DNA of 64,000 bases from Oscillospiraceae bacterium (GTDB lineage: Bacteria; Bacillota; Clostridia; Oscillospirales; Ruminococcaceae), in contig JAUNSK010000001.1 of NCBI GenBank assembly GCA_030539275.1, positions 178,932 to 242,931 of the forward strand, given 5' to 3'. Of the stretch, positions 54,926 through 64,000 are shown piece by piece. The first letter of the stretch is position 1. Each line of letters opens with the position of its first letter. Under the pieces are notes generated by a model. That model worked only from the letters and a program-made list of their open reading frames with translations. It did no database searches and was not told where the DNA came from. The position numbers and the translations under genes are program-made.

Positions 54926-56914
54926 TTACTGTCCAAGCAGGATCTTTACTAAAGCGACTATATCCAGAACAGAGAAATATGTATCCTGATTTACATCACA
55001 GACAGAATCTACTTTTTCAGCCTTGTCGTTTACGATGTAGCTCTTGAGGAGGATAAGATCAAGGATGTTTACTTTTTTATCCTTGTTGATATCACCGATT
55101 TCTGTAGGCAGGGCGGTTTTTCCTGTAAGCCTGACATCTGCGGCATAGCAGGCATCTTTCCCGATCTTGTTCAGAAGTCTGAATGAAAGATAATCACCCG
55201 GCTGTGCGTCTGCCGGAATGCCGTTGAGCAGATATACTGATGTATTTTCATCAAGGTATACCAGACCGCCGTTGTCTGTATATTTTACACTGAGCATGCC
55301 TTCACGTGCCTGTGATGAAGGGTCATCAACAGCTGTGATAACCTCAGAGCCCGGAGCTATCGATTTTGAATAAAGTGAAATGACAGGTATCTCATTGATA
55401 AAGTTTTCAGGCTTGTTGAAATTTACACTGACAGTTGTCTGACCAACAGGGATCTCGTCACCGGCTACAAAGAAAAATCCGGCGTTGTTCATCGGGATCT
55501 GATCATAATTTCCTGAAGTGTCCAGAAACAGATTGCAGTGAAGTTCAGTACTGTATCCGAGACAGGTGCCGCTTGCGTTGTATGTCTGTTCAAGATTTTT
55601 TGTTGTATAAATACTCATATTGTTTCCTGAAATGACTTCATATGGTGTAAATGAAACAGTGTTTCCCTGTGAGAGACCCTTTGTACTGTCACAGATGACA
55701 AGGAGTCGTTCAGCATCTGTGCTGACCTGAATGCAGGTATCACTGTAAACTGTGTCAACGGTTCCAAAGATATATGAACCTTTGGCATCAGCATAAACAG
55801 GTTCCTTTATAGTATACAGAGAATCTGCCTTGAAGCTTGAGTTCTGCTTTATCAGAGGGGAAACTGAGTATGATGTTACAACATTGTCGGAATTGAGCTT
55901 AATGCCGTAAATATCACCGCACTTGTATTCAAGACCAGGAATATAGTATGTGTTTACCTCACTGAAAGGAACATAGTCCTTTGAGTCTACGATCTGATAG
56001 TAAATGTCATTTCCAAGAGCGATGCAGACGATATCATAGTATTCAAATGCTGAGATCTCTTCAGGCGGATCTGTTGATACAGGCGGATTGCTGAGAGAAG
56101 AAACATACTGTGCAGCATAGGAGTCCTTTACCGTATAGGCAGTAAATCCATATAATAATTTGTTGTCAGGACCGGGTTCTCCGGTTCCGCAGTAAAGAAG
56201 TGCGTCTTTTCCGATAGATGTAACGGTTTGAGGAATAGTGATGGATTTAAGACTCCAGCACATATAAAAGGCTTTATCTGAAATAGTTTTAACTTTGCTT
56301 TTGAGTACTATTGTACCAAGTGAGGTACAATTTGAAAATGCTTCGTTTTCAATACAGAGAATTTCTGCACCTAAGTCAACCTCAGTGAGTGCGCTGCAGT
56401 AACTGAAAGCGATTGAAGGAATAGTTGTCAGACCGGTACCGATTTTAACGCTCTTCAGTCCTTTGCAGAGAGAGAAGCACTGTGAACCCATTGAAGTGAC
56501 GCTGTCAGGGATAGTAATGCCGGCAAGAGATGCGCAGTCCATAAAAGCACCGTTGCTGATAGTTTTGACAGTATCGGGAATAGTTACGCTGACAAGATTA
56601 TCATTGTGAGCAAAAGCAAAGCTTCCGATGAGTGTTACTCCGCTTTCAATGACTACGCTTTTTACTGAAGATCTGTCCCAGAGTGATGATGACATATCGG
56701 TATACATAGGACCTGTTCCTGAAATAGTCATGACACCGTCATCAGATATACTGTATGTGACATCCGGTCCGCAGCTTCCCTGTGCAGCAGTTGACTGTGC
56801 GGATACTTCTGAGTCAGGCAGTATGCTGCAGTACGGGATTGCTGAACCGGATACGGCCATGGAAGCAGCGATACAAAGAGTAAATGCATATCTGGCTATT
56901 ATAGATTTTTTCAT
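54926..56914 (-). CDS. Secreted BspA-type leucine-rich-repeat protein with C-terminal dockerin
   Basis: A 662-residue protein; GAGGTTAATC precedes the ATG. Signal peptide ~1-28. Residues ~50-275 hold at least eight LRR_5 (BspA-type) repeats ('LVSVTIPDTVKTISNGAFMDCASL', 'LAGITIPDSVTSMGSQCFSLCKGL'). Residues ~285-600 are an unassigned beta-rich region. The last ~60 residues are a dockerin ('GDINKDKKVNILDLILLKSYI', 'DVNQDTYFSVLDIVALVKILL'). There is no obvious catalytic motif. BspA repeats mediate binding to proteins or surfaces, so it may be a substrate-binding or structural component of the cellulosome. Confidence 0.9.
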   Translation of the reverse strand: MKKSIIARYAFTLCIAASMAVSGSAIPYCSILPDSEVSAQSTAAQGSCGPDVTYSISDDGVMTISGTGPMYTDMSSSLWDRSSVKSVVIESGVTLIGSFAFAHNDNLVSVTIPDTVKTISNGAFMDCASLAGITIPDSVTSMGSQCFSLCKGLKSVKIGTGLTTIPSIAFSYCSALTEVDLGAEILCIENEAFSNCTSLGTIVLKSKVKTISDKAFYMCWSLKSITIPQTVTSIGKDALLYCGTGEPGPDNKLLYGFTAYTVKDSYAAQYVSSLSNPPVSTDPPEEISAFEYYDIVCIALGNDIYYQIVDSKDYVPFSEVNTYYIPGLEYKCGDIYGIKLNSDNVVTSYSVSPLIKQNSSFKADSLYTIKEPVYADAKGSYIFGTVDTVYSDTCIQVSTDAERLLVICDSTKGLSQGNTVSFTPYEVISGNNMSIYTTKNLEQTYNASGTCLGYSTELHCNLFLDTSGNYDQIPMNNAGFFFVAGDEIPVGQTTVSVNFNKPENFINEIPVISLYSKSIAPGSEVITAVDDPSSQAREGMLSVKYTDNGGLVYLDENTSVYLLNGIPADAQPGDYLSFRLLNKIGKDACYAADVRLTGKTALPTEIGDINKDKKVNILDLILLKSYIVNDKAEKVDSVCDVNQDTYFSVLDIVALVKILLGQ

Positions 56915-59205: not shown

Positions 59206-59247
59206 AACAGAACCATTATGAATCAATATTTTCATAATGGTTCTGTT
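59206..59247. terminator. Terminator after AraC gene
   Basis: AACAGAACCATTATGAA pairs with TTCATAATGGTTCTGTT around a short loop; no strong T run follows, but the stem is long. It may serve the convergent small gene too. Confidence 0.7.
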
Positions 59248-59281: not shown

Positions 59282-59551
59282 TTACAATAATATTTTATCA
59301 TATATTATACTGTCAGCAATTCTGGGTACAAATTTTACATCATTATATATTTCAAAACATAAAATACGGATTTTAGTGCCTGTATCATATCCGGATTGAT
59401 TTTCTTCTATTACTATTGAGTGCTGTTTGGTGACTTTATAAAGTACTGCAGTATATGTAACCGTTCCGCCGTCTTTATAACAGGACTTTACAGGAATCAG
59501 CAAAGCTGCGGCTATTATTATCATGATAATAATCTTCTTTTTCTTATTCAT
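59282..59551 (-). CDS. Small conserved membrane-anchored or lipoprotein-like protein
   Basis: An 89-residue protein. The start at 59551 (MNKKKKIIIMIIIAA) follows AAAGGGGGT; the frame opens at 59584. An N-terminal hydrophobic segment (~6-22) is followed by 'PVKSCYKDGGTVTYTAVLYKVTKQHSIV' and ends 'RILCFEIYNDVKFVP'. The same plan, including 'YKDGGT...Y.A.LYKV' and 'G..I...EIYN', recurs in a common family of small Firmicutes proteins of unknown function. The Cys after the hydrophobic part could be a lipid-attachment site, but the lipobox is weak. Confidence 0.7.
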   Translation of the reverse strand: MNKKKKIIIMIIIAAALLIPVKSCYKDGGTVTYTAVLYKVTKQHSIVIEENQSGYDTGTKIRILCFEIYNDVKFVPRIADSIIYDKILL

Positions 59552-59953
59552 ATATATTTTACCCCCTTTAAAGGTTTTACACAAAATATTATCAGTAAAA
59601 TGCTCGGGCTGCCGGTTGACATACTAAAAATGATCTTTAATACATTGTACTATATTATGTATAAAATTTCAAATAAGCATAAATTTTAATTCGGGGATAA
59701 GAAAACGGATAGAGTTTTTACATTTTTTTCAGGACGAATGCATAAACAGAACAAATTCTTTTGTTATTCAGATGGAACAAAATATAAATAAATAATAATA
59801 ATACTTAATTATTTACTGAACAATCAAATAAAATGCCTAAATTACTTTTATCTGGGCATTTATTATTGTATTTTTTACAGATATATGTTAAAATTTGTAC
59901 TGTATAATATTTAATTATATAAATTCACTTAACAAAAGAAATGAGGTCTTATT
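59552..59953. promoter_or_regulatory. Gap with one hairpin and probable RTX-gene promoter
   Basis: AT-rich, non-coding. AATAAAATGCC pairs with GGGCATTTATT (59826-59862) and is followed by a T run, a terminator-like hairpin whose upstream transcript is unclear. TATAAT at 59903-59908 lies ~45 nt before the RTX start, with a poor -35. Confidence 0.4.
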
Positions 59954-62900
59954 ATGGAAAATGGTGAAAACAGTACTGAGTATTCGGTTGATCCAAATGT
60001 TATTGGAAAAACAACGGATGAGTATATCGACTCAAAAATTGAGGATGCAAAAGATAATGTTAAAGGGAATGTTGAAGATCATGTAAAAGAAATGATCATA
60101 GATAAGTTAGATGAAAGTGCTGAAAAATTTGGATTTGGTAAAGAAGAGCAGGATGTTACTTTACTTCTTCTGACAGGGGGAGCTTCAGATCAGTATATTA
60201 AAACTGAAACTGTTGATAAAAGCAAGATAATGGAGACGCTTCCGTCTGATATAGCTGATAAATATTCACAGGCAATGGATACAATAGAAAAAATTAAAGA
60301 AGGAAGAAAAATATATAATAACCTGGTTGCACTTGAGAATAGCATAAATGAAGATGGAACCACCAGTGCTGATTATGAAGAAAATCTGCTTAATACACTT
60401 GACGATTTTGTAGGCGTAGCAGGTAGTCTGGCTGATAAAATACCAGGCGGTAAATACTACTCAGAATCATTTGGTTTTGCTGTATCCGGGGTAAGAAATC
60501 TCAATGAGCTGATCAGCAAGGAACATAGTATTGAAATAACAGATGCAATGATATTTGATACTTTGGGTACAGATATAGAATCAAAAGTTCAGGATATGTG
60601 TCAAGGTAACTGGAAACAGGGACCAAATGTATATGAAACTGCAGCATGGATCAAAAGTCTGGAGAGTGACCCACTACTTAAAATACAGAATCAGAATATG
60701 ATCAATGAGTTAAATAAATATTTGACCTGGCGTACAGAATATGAATTTGCTTTGGAACTTGAAGCACAGGGGCTAACTCTTGAATCATATAATTATGCAA
60801 TGGAACAGGCAAAAAAGGCAGCCGAAAGAGAGGAAAAGTCCAAAACTGTTATAGGACAGATGCAGCTGGATGTTGAAGATGCAATAGACAGTTTTGCTGT
60901 AAAAGTATATACCTCTGATGCCTGGATGAAATCAATGGCAGCGGCAAATAAATTAATTACCGGCTTTGATGATTTTAAACGAAATATGTTTGATGCACTT
61001 GAGCTCTATAAAATTTATCTGGATTATAAGTGGAATGAGGCAGAAGATAAACTATTAGATCTGTATGAAGATGCTGAGAAAAAAGCTGTGTCATTAATGA
61101 TAGAATCGTGGACAAGAGCAATAAATGCTGTTCAAAGAGTATTTTTTGATCCTCTTATACTAGATCTGAACGGAAATGGATTTGAGATAAATTCAAAGAG
61201 CAGCGGTACTTATTTTGACCTCAACAGTGACGGATTTGCTGAAAAAATAAACTGGACATCAAAAGATGCAATTCTGGCTGTAGATCTTAATGAAGACGAA
61301 AAAATAAATAACGGACGCGAGGTTTTCGGAGATTATCATCTTTTGGCTGATGGAACCAGGGCAAGTAACGGATTTGAGGCACTGGCCCAGTATGATACCA
61401 ACAAAGATGGAATAATTGATGAAAACGATGAGATATTCGGTAAACTAAGATTATGGGTCGACAGTGACAATGATGGTAAATCAGCAGCTAGTGAGCTGAA
61501 GACATTAGCCGAAATGAACATATCAGCCATAAGACTCGATTATGAAGAAATAAATCAGCAGACAGATTCTGAAGCTGTAATAGGAAATGCTGCAACATTT
61601 ATATATAAAGATAATACACAGGGCAATATAGCTGAGATGTGGGTTTCATCTGACTTTATTGATACTCAGGAAGTAGCAGATGTTGAACTGTCTGATGAAA
61701 TTAAGAGTATGGCTGATGTGAGCGGTCACGGTAAGCTGTATTCACTTCATACAGCAATGTCCCTTGATACAACAGGAACACTTAAGAATATGGTTGATCA
61801 GTTTGATCTTCAAACACAATCCGGTCAGAGAAGGGCTATTGTTGAGAACATTCTGGCTTATATGTGCAAATGTGATGAAATTTCAGATAGAAGCAGAGGC
61901 GGTAATATAAGTGCCAGAAAACTTGCTGTAGTAGAAGCTTACATGGGCGAATCGTTTGTCGGACGTAACGGAGAAAATCCTAACAATACAGCAGGACCGA
62001 TTCTTGATACAATGTATAATAAAATAGTAGACGTATACTATTATTCACTGGTAGGTCAGATGTACAGTGATATAATGGATCTTATAATATTCAAAGATAA
62101 TAACGGAAATACGAGTGTTGATACGACAGTATTTAATATTTTTCTTAAATCATCCCTAAAATCAGGTGAAATGAGCAATGACAAATTATCAGAAATATGC
62201 GGATACCTTAAATATATGGCTGTTAATTCTGATTTAAACAGTAAACTGGTACTTGATACAAGAGAATTTCTTATTAAAGATGTTCCGGAATATACGGAAA
62301 TAATTGATAAAGCACTGAATATCATCACAGCTAAAGAAGATAACGGTAGTATTAATGGAACTTTATCGGATGATATAATGATAGGAAGTTCTTCAGACGA
62401 TATACTCAGTTCTTCAGACGGCAATGATATTCTCAACGGAGGAACCGGAAACGATATACTTAACGGAGGAGCCGGCACAGACAGATATATATACGGAATC
62501 GGAGATGCAACAGATATAATAAATGACAGTGAATTAGGTGCCCAGGCAAGAAATATAATAGAATTCAGAGAAGGAATAACACCTGAGGATCTGTATATAT
62601 ACAGAACAGGAAATTATGATCTTACAATACAGGTAGGAAAAAATGAAGACGATAAAATAACAATATCAAACTTTGTTTATGATGAAAGTCACAGAAGGTT
62701 CATGTTAAAGTTTGCGGATGAAAGTGAAGCAGAGCTTAGAGAATTAGCGAAAACGCTTTTAGGAACAGAATCTGGTGATACCCTTAATGCAATATTTAAT
62801 CAGGAAAAAAATACGCTGAACGGTCTTGGAGGAGACGATACCCTTAATGCCGGCAACGGGGATGATATACTGATAGGAGGAGCCGGAAACGATATACTGA

Positions 62901-64000
62901 ATTCGGGAAACGGCAATGACATTCTTGACGGAGGAACCGGAAACGATACACTTAACGGAGGAAACGGCCAGGATACGTATATATACGGAATCGGAGACGG
63001 AACAGATATATTAAATGACTATGAATCAGACGCCCAAGCAAGAAATATATTAGAATTCAGAGAAGGAATAACACCTGAGGATCTGTATATATACAGAACA
63101 GGAAATTATGATCTGACAATTCAGGTAGGAGAAAATGAAGACGATAAAATAACAATATCGAACTTTGTTTATGATGAAAGTCACAGAAGGTTCATGTTGA
63201 AGTTTGCGGATGAAAGTGAAGCGGAACTGAGAGAATCAGCGAAAACGCTTATCGGTACAGAAGATGACAATACTCTAAATGCAATATATAATCAGGAAAA
63301 AAATACGCTGAACGGTCTTGGAGGAAACGATACTCTTAATTCCGGCAACGGGGATGATATGCTGATAGGAGGAGCCGGAAACGATATACTGAATTCGGGA
63401 AACGGTAATGACATTCTTGACGGAGGAACCGGAAACGATACACTTAACGGAGGAAACGGCCAGGATACGTATATATATGGAATCGGAGACGGAACAGATA
63501 TAATAAATGAGTATGAATCAGGGGCAGACGCAAGAAATATATTAGAATTCAGAGAAGGAATAACACTTGATGATCTGTATATATACAGAACAGGAAATTA
63601 TGATCTGACAATTCAGGTAGGAGAAAATGAAGACGATAAAATAACAATATCAAACTTCGTATATAGTGATACCTATGAAAAATTCAAGCTGAAGTTTGCA
63701 GATGAAAGTGAAGCAGAGCTTAAAGAATTAGCCAAAACGATTGTTGGAACAGAATCAGCCGATACCCTGAATGCAATATATACGACAGAAAATATTCTCA
63801 ACGGACTGGGCGGGAACGATACTCTTAATTCCGGTAACGGAAAGGATATACTGATAGGAGGAGCCGGAAACGATATACTGAATGCCGGAAACGGAAATGA
63901 CATCCTTGAAGGAGGAACCGGAAACGATACACTTAACGGAGGAAACGGACAGGATACATATATATACGGAATCGGAGACGGAACAGATATAATAAATGAG
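59954..64000 (+). CDS. Giant RTX-type calcium-binding repeat protein, 3' end outside window
   Basis: The frame is open from ATG 59954 (after AAATGAGGTC) to the window end: 1349 residues visible, with no signal peptide. Residues 1-390 are acidic and helical, unassigned. At ~395-535 comes the block common in Gram-negative RTX proteins: 'FDPLILDLNGNGFEI', 'TYFDLNSDGFAEKINW', 'ILAVDLNEDEKINNGREVFGDYHLLADG', 'NGFEALAQYDTNKDGIIDENDEIF', 'LWVDSDNDGKSAASELKTL'. From ~800 come arrays of nonapeptides G-G-x-G-N-D-x-L, each followed by a haemolysin-Ca-related segment ('DTYIYGIGDGTDIIND', 'ILEFREGITPEDLYIYRTGNYDLTIQVG', 'ITISNFVYDESHRRF'). The repeats bind Ca2+ and fold outside the cell. Activity and export route are unknown. 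Confidence 0.88.
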   Translation, partial: MENGENSTEYSVDPNVIGKTTDEYIDSKIEDAKDNVKGNVEDHVKEMIIDKLDESAEKFGFGKEEQDVTLLLLTGGASDQYIKTETVDKSKIMETLPSDIADKYSQAMDTIEKIKEGRKIYNNLVALENSINEDGTTSADYEENLLNTLDDFVGVAGSLADKIPGGKYYSESFGFAVSGVRNLNELISKEHSIEITDAMIFDTLGTDIESKVQDMCQGNWKQGPNVYETAAWIKSLESDPLLKIQNQNMINELNKYLTWRTEYEFALELEAQGLTLESYNYAMEQAKKAAEREEKSKTVIGQMQLDVEDAIDSFAVKVYTSDAWMKSMAAANKLITGFDDFKRNMFDALELYKIYLDYKWNEAEDKLLDLYEDAEKKAVSLMIESWTRAINAVQRVFFDPLILDLNGNGFEINSKSSGTYFDLNSDGFAEKINWTSKDAILAVDLNEDEKINNGREVFGDYHLLADGTRASNGFEALAQYDTNKDGIIDENDEIFGKLRLWVDSDNDGKSAASELKTLAEMNISAIRLDYEEINQQTDSEAVIGNAATFIYKDNTQGNIAEMWVSSDFIDTQEVADVELSDEIKSMADVSGHGKLYSLHTAMSLDTTGTLKNMVDQFDLQTQSGQRRAIVENILAYMCKCDEISDRSRGGNISARKLAVVEAYMGESFVGRNGENPNNTAGPILDTMYNKIVDVYYYSLVGQMYSDIMDLIIFKDNNGNTSVDTTVFNIFLKSSLKSGEMSNDKLSEICGYLKYMAVNSDLNSKLVLDTREFLIKDVPEYTEIIDKALNIITAKEDNGSINGTLSDDIMIGSSSDDILSSSDGNDILNGGTGNDILNGGAGTDRYIYGIGDATDIINDSELGAQARNIIEFREGITPEDLYIYRTGNYDLTIQVGKNEDDKITISNFVYDESHRRFMLKFADESEAELRELAKTLLGTESGDTLNAIFNQEKNTLNGLGGDDTLNAGNGDDILIGGAGNDILNSGNGNDILDGGTGNDTLNGGNGQDTYIYGIGDGTDILNDYESDAQARNILEFREGITPEDLYIYRTGNYDLTIQVGENEDDKITISNFVYDESHRRFMLKFADESEAELRESAKTLIGTEDDNTLNAIYNQEKNTLNGLGGNDTLNSGNGDDMLIGGAGNDILNSGNGNDILDGGTGNDTLNGGNGQDTYIYGIGDGTDIINEYESGADARNILEFREGITLDDLYIYRTGNYDLTIQVGENEDDKITISNFVYSDTYEKFKLKFADESEAELKELAKTIVGTESADTLNAIYTTENILNGLGGNDTLNSGNGKDILIGGAGNDILNAGNGNDILEGGTGNDTLNGGNGQDTYIYGIGDGTDIINE
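62340..64000 (+). repeat. 492-bp tandem repeats in RTX gene
   Basis: Landmarks recur exactly 492 bp apart: GCAATAT at 62789, 63281 and 63773; ATACGGAATC at 62491 and 62983. Each 164-residue unit holds five or six RTX nonapeptides plus a ~90-residue spacer domain. At least three units and part of a fourth are present, the nucleotide identity being high. Confidence 0.88.

Follow-up and report, generated by a model that had tools for sequence, protein, structure and literature searches.

An RTX protein gene with an FrpC-type self-processing module and a probable TolC-free type I exporter in an Oscillospiraceae genome

The RTX locus

The window analysed here is a stretch of 64,000 nucleotides from an Oscillospiraceae genome (G000:C3:178932-242931, on a contig extending to 253370), and ends within a gene for a giant RTX protein. 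The open reading frame (ORF; 59954-64000, forward strand) is still open at the window end. Extension along the contig places its end 3,021 bases further, at position 9953 of L009, the fetched locus of the same genome which spans the RTX gene, its 3' end, the exporter genes and a second RTX gene. The full protein has 2,355 residues, carries a module of the FrpC self-processing type, and is followed by transporter genes through which it would very probably leave the cell without a TolC channel. The features are as follows.

59954..64000, + strand: 5' part of the RTX gene, 1,349 of 2,355 codons; the remainder, L009:6933-9953, lies outside the window
59954..61147, + strand: N-terminal region (head), residues 1-398; no Pfam family above cut-off
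61148..61153, + strand: predicted scissile Asp399-Pro400, by comparison with FrpC
61148..61678, + strand: FrpC-type self-processing module, residues 399-575; most calcium ligands retained
61679..62437, + strand: linker region, residues 576-828; matches in relatives, some of them Gram-negative, span it too
62438..64000, + strand: onset of the RTX and HCBP-related repeats (492-bp unit), which run on beyond the window
L009:13784-17371: second RTX gene, head 65% identical to the first, truncated by the contig end within the repeats
L011:6988-11407 (contig 41): third RTX gene, with a different head, an internal run of N and the same C-terminal helix motif
59206..59247 (L009:2138-2179), + strand: terminator-like hairpin 3' of the preceding AraC-type gene, a pattern match only
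59282..59584, - strand: small divergent lipoprotein-like ORF, lipobox seen by eye; sole, weak partner candidate near the gene

An earlier note, made from the letters of the window alone, had reported an RTX protein in a Gram-positive, and this is borne out. In the whole protein, RTX nonapeptides (GGxGxDxxx; PF00353, E 3.3e-79, 17 stretches) and HCBP_related segments (PF06594, E 1.4e-25, 4 stretches) score far above doubt, and the transporter falls among Ruminococcus sequences. The spacers within the repeats are, as had been remarked, highly alike, the 492-bp unit recurring in 8.3 copies with 92% matches. The lack of an N-terminal signal is confirmed too: no hydrophobic segment is found at the N-terminus (best 19-residue hydropathy -0.51 within the first 60 residues), and hydropathy reaches at most 0.82 over the whole protein. 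No LPxTG motif was found in the 2,355 residues, and a Rfam search of L009 gave no match. Because of the hairpin that follows the AraC-type gene, the RTX gene is probably separate from the transcript of the latter.

The export machinery

The gene for a 709-residue ATP-binding cassette (ABC) exporter begins 110 bases 3' of the RTX gene. It is overlapped by the gene for a 416-residue adaptor, after which comes the second RTX gene. Extension of the contig, as the earlier note advised, thus recovered both the missing C-terminus and adjacent transport genes. The exporter is of the HlyB type (TIGR01846, 898.4 bits, cut-off 725.55) and the adaptor of the HlyD type (TIGR01843, 234.4 bits, cut-off 208.65); among solved structures, the closest by sequence are HlyB for the exporter (698 bits) and, for the adaptor, a HlyD-kind membrane fusion protein (152.7 bits). 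Since a terminator-like hairpin (L009:13660-13692) lies between the adaptor and the second RTX gene, the RTX, exporter and adaptor genes are read as a single unit. The C39-like domain of the exporter aligns to that of HlyB. DSG stands in place of the DCG of ComA, and the His and Asp of the catalytic triad are also unmatched; such a degenerate domain would dock rather than cut.

Neither a TolC-type channel (PF02321, OEP) nor Omp85 is matched in the genome hosting the window, whereas 7 of 14 control genomes were positive for the former, and 7 of 14 for the latter. The coexistence of a HlyB-type exporter and a HlyD-type adaptor with no TolC or Omp85 match makes a two-part, TolC-free type I route most likely, and the lack of a PF02321 match places the system among two-part relatives, rather than among tripartite systems. 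Export of the window protein by this route is, judging from the sequences, highly probable. The adaptor itself is shortened. Its hairpin measures 160 residues, about 40 less than the measured Gram-negative ones, which span 195-200 residues in all 7 cases; 47 of 50 measured Gram-positive adaptors fall in the 109-162 range. The hairpin pattern was unmatched, and the hairpin hence unmeasured, in 21 further Gram-positive adaptors and in 1 of 8 Gram-negative ones. In the fusobacterium Haliovirga, whose transporter is the nearest of the plasmid-borne ones (55%), as well as in Pantoea, a gene of the TolC family is found directly downstream; the second RTX gene takes this place at the window locus.

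Distribution of related transporters

HlyB-type exporters above cut-off are rare, being found in 4 of 148 family genomes and in 4 of 391 class genomes, the genome under study counted in both. Among named genomes, 95 exporter relatives were found by protein search, 80 of which were retained; L021, L022 and L027 were left out of the counts as duplicates of named loci, judged by the length of the contig and the position on it. The retained relatives belong mostly to Ruminococcus and Lachnospiraceae metagenome bins, two being actinobacterial bins. Named carriers are R. flavefaciens (007c and FD-1 among its strains), Streptococcus sanguinis, S. gallolyticus, S. gallinaceus, Cellulosilyticum and Pseudoruminococcus. 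In 72 of the 73 loci with room for it, the adaptor gene follows the exporter by no more than 250 bp, and an RTX ORF lies within 2.5 kb upstream of the exporter in 46 of the 67 with enough upstream sequence.

As the protein family is typical of Gram-negatives and the contamination estimate for the genome is 3.62%, the contig could be thought a Gram-negative contaminant. This is very improbable. The transporter is mostly 82-89% identical to Ruminococcus loci and sits, in a quick tree, within a Ruminococcus-rich group, separated from all 8 Gram-negative rows, although the split has a weak support of 78 and long branches meet there. Composition stays inside the window's own range, and another contig carries the third RTX gene, whose product shows the same helix motif. 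Contamination was set aside on account of the Ruminococcus identity and the tree placement.

The self-processing module

At E 10 or lower, the FrpC self-processing module is the sole PDB match of residues 396-790 (E 1.1e-28). The block D-P-L-x-L-D-L-N-G-N-G, rightly noticed in the earlier note, is present at residues 399-409; that its Asp-Pro marks the start of a self-processing module had been overlooked. In 32 module-bearing ORFs, the three of this genome included, the scissile Asp is found in 31 and the Pro in all; D462, E474, D499, D510, D521, E532 and both Trp are likewise conserved in 32 of 32. Calcium sites are mostly retained in the window module, where D421 and D423 are replaced by Asn and D478 is kept. 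Self-processing of the window protein is probably active, as far as residue conservation can tell. Among the 33 RTX genes whose 5' end is present, 28 have the module.

A module-like domain was also observed in small ORFs, mostly of about 350-400 residues (loci L134-L160, from clostridial genomes). It is matched in 47 of 391 class genomes, 43 if the genome hosting the window, G172, G187 and G206 are left aside. Among 26 such loci read, the pattern was matched in 16, all with Asp-Pro, and unmatched in 10.

A possible C-terminal signal

Export had been expected to depend on the then unseen C-terminus or on another route; the C-terminus carries a motif common to relatives. Among 52 complete RTX C-termini from the fetched loci (53 before one row was dropped), 40 feature the end motif Q-[LMIF]-[LWFTYI]-[VIALT] and 31 a helix motif. 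The end motif occurs in 1.8% of shuffled sequences and in 8 of 643 other ORFs, the helix motif in 1 of 643; the contrast is descriptive only, because the motifs were picked on the very sequences in which they were counted, many of which are closely related. The third RTX protein has the same helix motif as the window protein and ends with QLFV, and is therefore probably exported in trans by the same exporter. No transporter is found within the 19.5 kb fetched around its gene.

Heads, partner genes and cassette exchange

The heads preceding the module are mosaic. Where the 5' end of the ORF is present they measure between 220 and 1,055 residues, L076 (6 residues) excepted. Twenty of 30 heads were scanned alone against Pfam, as were 10 partner genes; two heads of the window's genome were scanned only within whole proteins. 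Nuclease-toxin or lipase-like domains were found in 7 of the 20, namely Tox-GHH in L034 (E 1.2e-9), Tox-HNH-HHH in L065 (E 8.9e-26), and Mbeg1-like or lipase-like domains in L031, L048, L062, L100 and L108. The remaining 13 match no Pfam family above cut-off. At L046, a 178-residue ORF preceding the exporter (2242-2778) has by eye a GHH-like motif near its end, and is perhaps a small stand-alone toxin.

A co-directional gene of 100-300 residues abuts the RTX gene upstream in 26 of 33 cases (35 before the gene fragments L023_8603 and L028 were dropped); that of L076 appears unrelated by eye and that of L055 is truncated by the contig end. Among other genes of at least 300 residues in the same loci, an abutting upstream ORF of this size was found in 53 of 198. 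In three of the seven RTX genes devoid of an abutting partner (L023, L086, L100) a candidate lies slightly further upstream, past a gap or a broken frame; at L099 and at the three RTX genes of the window's genome none was seen in the loci read. Partners are either lipoproteins, of which 12 were recognised by lipobox pattern and 4 others by eye, or apparently cytoplasmic. The SUKH family comprises immunity proteins, and the partners beside two nuclease heads are SUKH-1 (E 8e-12) and Syd/SUKH-2 (E 3e-22). A SUKH-1 gene occurs at L101 too, not abutting and one gene further upstream. Among the lipoprotein partners, a first class matches in PDB, by profile, only the hypothetical protein 4gl6 (E 2.3e-10) and not FrpD, and in Pfam DUF5037 in 2 of 13 members and SCIN in 1; a second class gave six PDB matches, the best with E 0.12. 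In 20 of the 26 head and partner pairs, taken for a shuffle test, head similarity tracks partner similarity, with 6 shared links against 1.8 expected, a value reached by 14 of 2000 shuffles.

Two pairs of loci document the exchange of head and partner over a conserved exporter end. L031 and L034 are 89% identical over 4.3 kb, S. gallolyticus BSJ31 and S. gallinaceus 3635A 94.9% over 5.6 kb; in both pairs the shared stretch starts within the RTX 3' part, and in the first it begins after the module. No DNA match of at least 150 bases (first pair) or at least 100 bases (second pair) is found in head or partner. In the streptococcal pair, only S. gallinaceus has the module; this species also hosts a second copy of the partner, 52% identical, and, by eye, a truncated head. 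At L034, two orphan genes resemble the partners of L101, L085 and L087 (E 5.5e-10 to 1.5e-13). On Gram-negative plasmids, an upstream gene abuts the RTX gene in P. aeruginosa, Burkholderia and Haliovirga (484 residues in the latter), and lies 228 bp away in Azotobacter and 674 bp away in Methylomonas. Cassette exchange, observed in relatives only, is consistent with the layout of polymorphic toxins, N-terminal warheads being mounted on a constant delivery part, and a toxin function of the family is slightly favoured. The earlier interpretation, partly supported on the whole, had left this warhead and partner architecture unnoticed.

The head of the window protein

The window head is about 20% identical to those of L056 and L099, and has no homologue at E 1e-5 in 10 other genomes of the genus. 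Profile comparison with the short heads having a lipoprotein partner, the only class so compared, shows weak similarity (E 1.2e-4, probability 55%). Lacking an adjacent immunity gene, the protein is not filed as a polymorphic toxin; a toxin function is conceivable for it, if doubtful, the warhead being guessed by analogy with relatives. A lone relative of the partner lipoproteins is found elsewhere in the genome (G000:C23:8458-9126, E 1.3e-18), as are five SUKH-1 matches above cut-off, one with an internal stop; all these are perhaps orphan immunity genes.

The protein may alternatively be a surface or matrix component, an adhesin or scaffold, in which clipping and linking would bolt the head to the own surface, to plant fibre-associated proteins or to a neighbour. 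This accords with a head devoid of toxin domain and with three RTX genes devoid of partner. Moreover, it has been speculated that FrpD anchors the piece released from FrpC at the cell surface (PMC7078468, PMC5233953). The host may also be fibrolytic: the product of gene 54926-56914 of the window is secreted and combines, as judged by eye, leucine-rich-like repeats with a dockerin-like segment at its C-terminus, which suggests a cellulosome-type host. Together with the transporter placement, this agrees, as far as seen, with the clostridial surroundings described earlier and speaks against a contaminant. A surface role is a minority reading. Against it stand the weak resemblance of the head to a class with lipoprotein partners and a related exporter that carries a nuclease head, its RTX 3' part being 89% DNA-identical to that of a lipase-like-headed gene.

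The absence of a partner gene would equally suit a toxin directed against eukaryotes, such as rumen or gut protozoa or host cells, for which no immunity gene is needed, and FtxA of Filifactor is reported to be linked to periodontal disease. Such a target is unlikely. Cytolysin features are missing: the protein scores 438.7 bits with the NCBIfam RTX_toxin model, whose cut-off is 1000, and it has no hydrophobic segment; for these two reasons a HlyA-type RTX cytolysin with a pore segment was rejected. HlyC is not matched in the genome, but control genomes were silent too. The SUKH partners of two relatives point rather to bacterial targets.

Proposed mechanism

In the favoured reading, the 2,355-residue calcium-binding exoprotein would cross the single membrane in one step via the ABC exporter and adaptor encoded downstream, without TolC, being recognised through an uncleaved C-terminal signal. 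Calcium outside the cell would drive folding of the RTX repeats as well as of the module, which would cut Asp399-Pro400 and free an N-terminal piece of 399 residues. The newly formed Asp end of this piece would then be linked to a lysine on a protein nearby. Relatives could have, as their N-terminal piece, a swappable warhead, nuclease or lipase-like, flanked by an upstream immunity gene. Gene order, families, residues and cassette exchange are observed, while export, cleavage, linkage, immunity and toxicity are inferred. This model as a whole, from TolC-free export to self-cleavage and linkage, with a polymorphic toxin-like system in relatives, appears reasonably likely. A broader proposal, tentative and given somewhat less than an even chance, is that monoderm gut bacteria (Ruminococcus, Lachnospiraceae, streptococci) share a widespread TolC-free type I polymorphic toxin system, in which warheads at the N-terminus, each paired with an immunity protein encoded upstream, would in most members be freed as reactive anhydrides by a calcium-triggered cut at Asp-Pro and bolted onto rival cells; FrpC and FrpD of Neisseria would be the Gram-negative branch of the same weapon.

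Several observations count against the model. As to export, three Gram-positive adaptors of the Cellulosilyticum group (L107 by name, L025 and L026 by tree kinship) have long hairpins of 252-258 residues, and the C-terminus of the window protein has the helix motif and misses the strict end motif. In 21 of 67 transporters no RTX ORF lies within 2.5 kb upstream. In L088, L100 and L106 one is found downstream, and L105 has a head-module fragment ahead of the exporter; no substrate gene was seen for the others in the loci read. As to cleavage, D579 of FrpC corresponds to Glu561 in the window protein, and to Glu in 29 of 32 modules. Cleavage of FrpC is abolished by D579A but not by D579N (PMC7078468, PMC5233953); as D579N is tolerated, Glu is plausible at this position. 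The module was not found in 5 of 33 RTX genes (L052, L097, L101, L104_5950 and L092, the last in the Streptococcus swap pair), hence the clip-and-link step is not general. As to immunity, abutting upstream ORFs are common if size is disregarded, occurring at 113 of 198 control genes, so that partners are distinguished only by size and, in two cases, by family. SUKH domains were found in 3 of 10 genes scanned as partners, and the others match no named immunity family; the L048 partner is barely above the cut-off of SCIN, a staphylococcal complement inhibitor (23.3 against 23 bits). The window head matches no Pfam family above cut-off and nothing in PDB, by profile, at E 1, no partner abuts any of the three RTX genes of the genome, and the loci studied are mostly metagenome bins.

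Relation to known systems

The earlier note held the D-P-L block with RTX nonapeptides to be typical of type I secreted proteins of Gram-negatives. This is true of the family, but Gram-positive RTX operons were already known: one without TolC was noted in 2010, and another, with an FrpC-like module, in 2020 (PMC3034196, PMC7692872). Streptococcus sanguinis SK36, Filifactor alocis (ftxABD) and Eubacterium yurii all combine, as the window locus does, RTX, HlyB-like and HlyD-like genes. TolC was not identified in S. sanguinis, as in the genome studied here, and FtxA of Filifactor similarly has an FrpC-like self-processing module. In contrast, a C-terminal signal, warhead and partner pairs and cassette exchange are not described in the accessible text of the same papers.

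Shared with FrpC and FrpD of Neisseria are the Asp-Pro self-processing module, the RTX C-terminus and, as in some relatives, a lipoprotein partner: FrpD, encoded in the same operon, binds the piece before the module with a dissociation constant of 0.2 nM, its function being called unknown (PMC7078468, PMC5233953). FrpC and FrpD differ in being Gram-negative, while the window system faces a single membrane; partners in the relatives may be lipoproteins or cytoplasmic SUKH proteins, and the window gene has none. In 2019, the two were hypothesised to be an antibacterial effector and immunity pair of a type I secretion system (PMC6759196). According to the same source, the Stenotrophomonas effector Smlt3024 is related to RTX heads and its immunity protein Smlt3025 has the FrpD topology; this pair differs in being Gram-negative and delivered by a type IV system.

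Polymorphic toxin systems have a constant delivery part, a swapped C-terminal toxin, adjacent immunity genes, SUKH included, and orphan immunity genes. A constant delivery part, a swapped domain, adjacent SUKH and orphan genes recur in the relatives described here, where the swapped domain is N-terminal and type I export relies on the C-terminus; in a 2012 survey, as far as its accessible text goes, type I export is mentioned only for large RTX toxins (PMC3482391). Among the papers listed by searches mostly outside subscription literature, none was found that describes monoderms with a TolC-free exporter whose substrates bear N-terminal warheads and have immunity genes upstream.

If the model is true, gut and rumen Gram-positives would have a protein-weapon route besides the known ones, type VII secretion and bacteriocins. 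It would also assign a testable job to FrpC-type proteins, nuclease heads and SUKH partners being easy readouts. With its shortened adaptor, the exporter would moreover be a minimal type I system from nature, useful for asking what contact with TolC needs.

At L036, L041, L047 and L079, genes resembling those of agr-type quorum sensing (AgrB-like, LytTR-like, histidine kinase) were seen by eye near the exporter or RTX gene.

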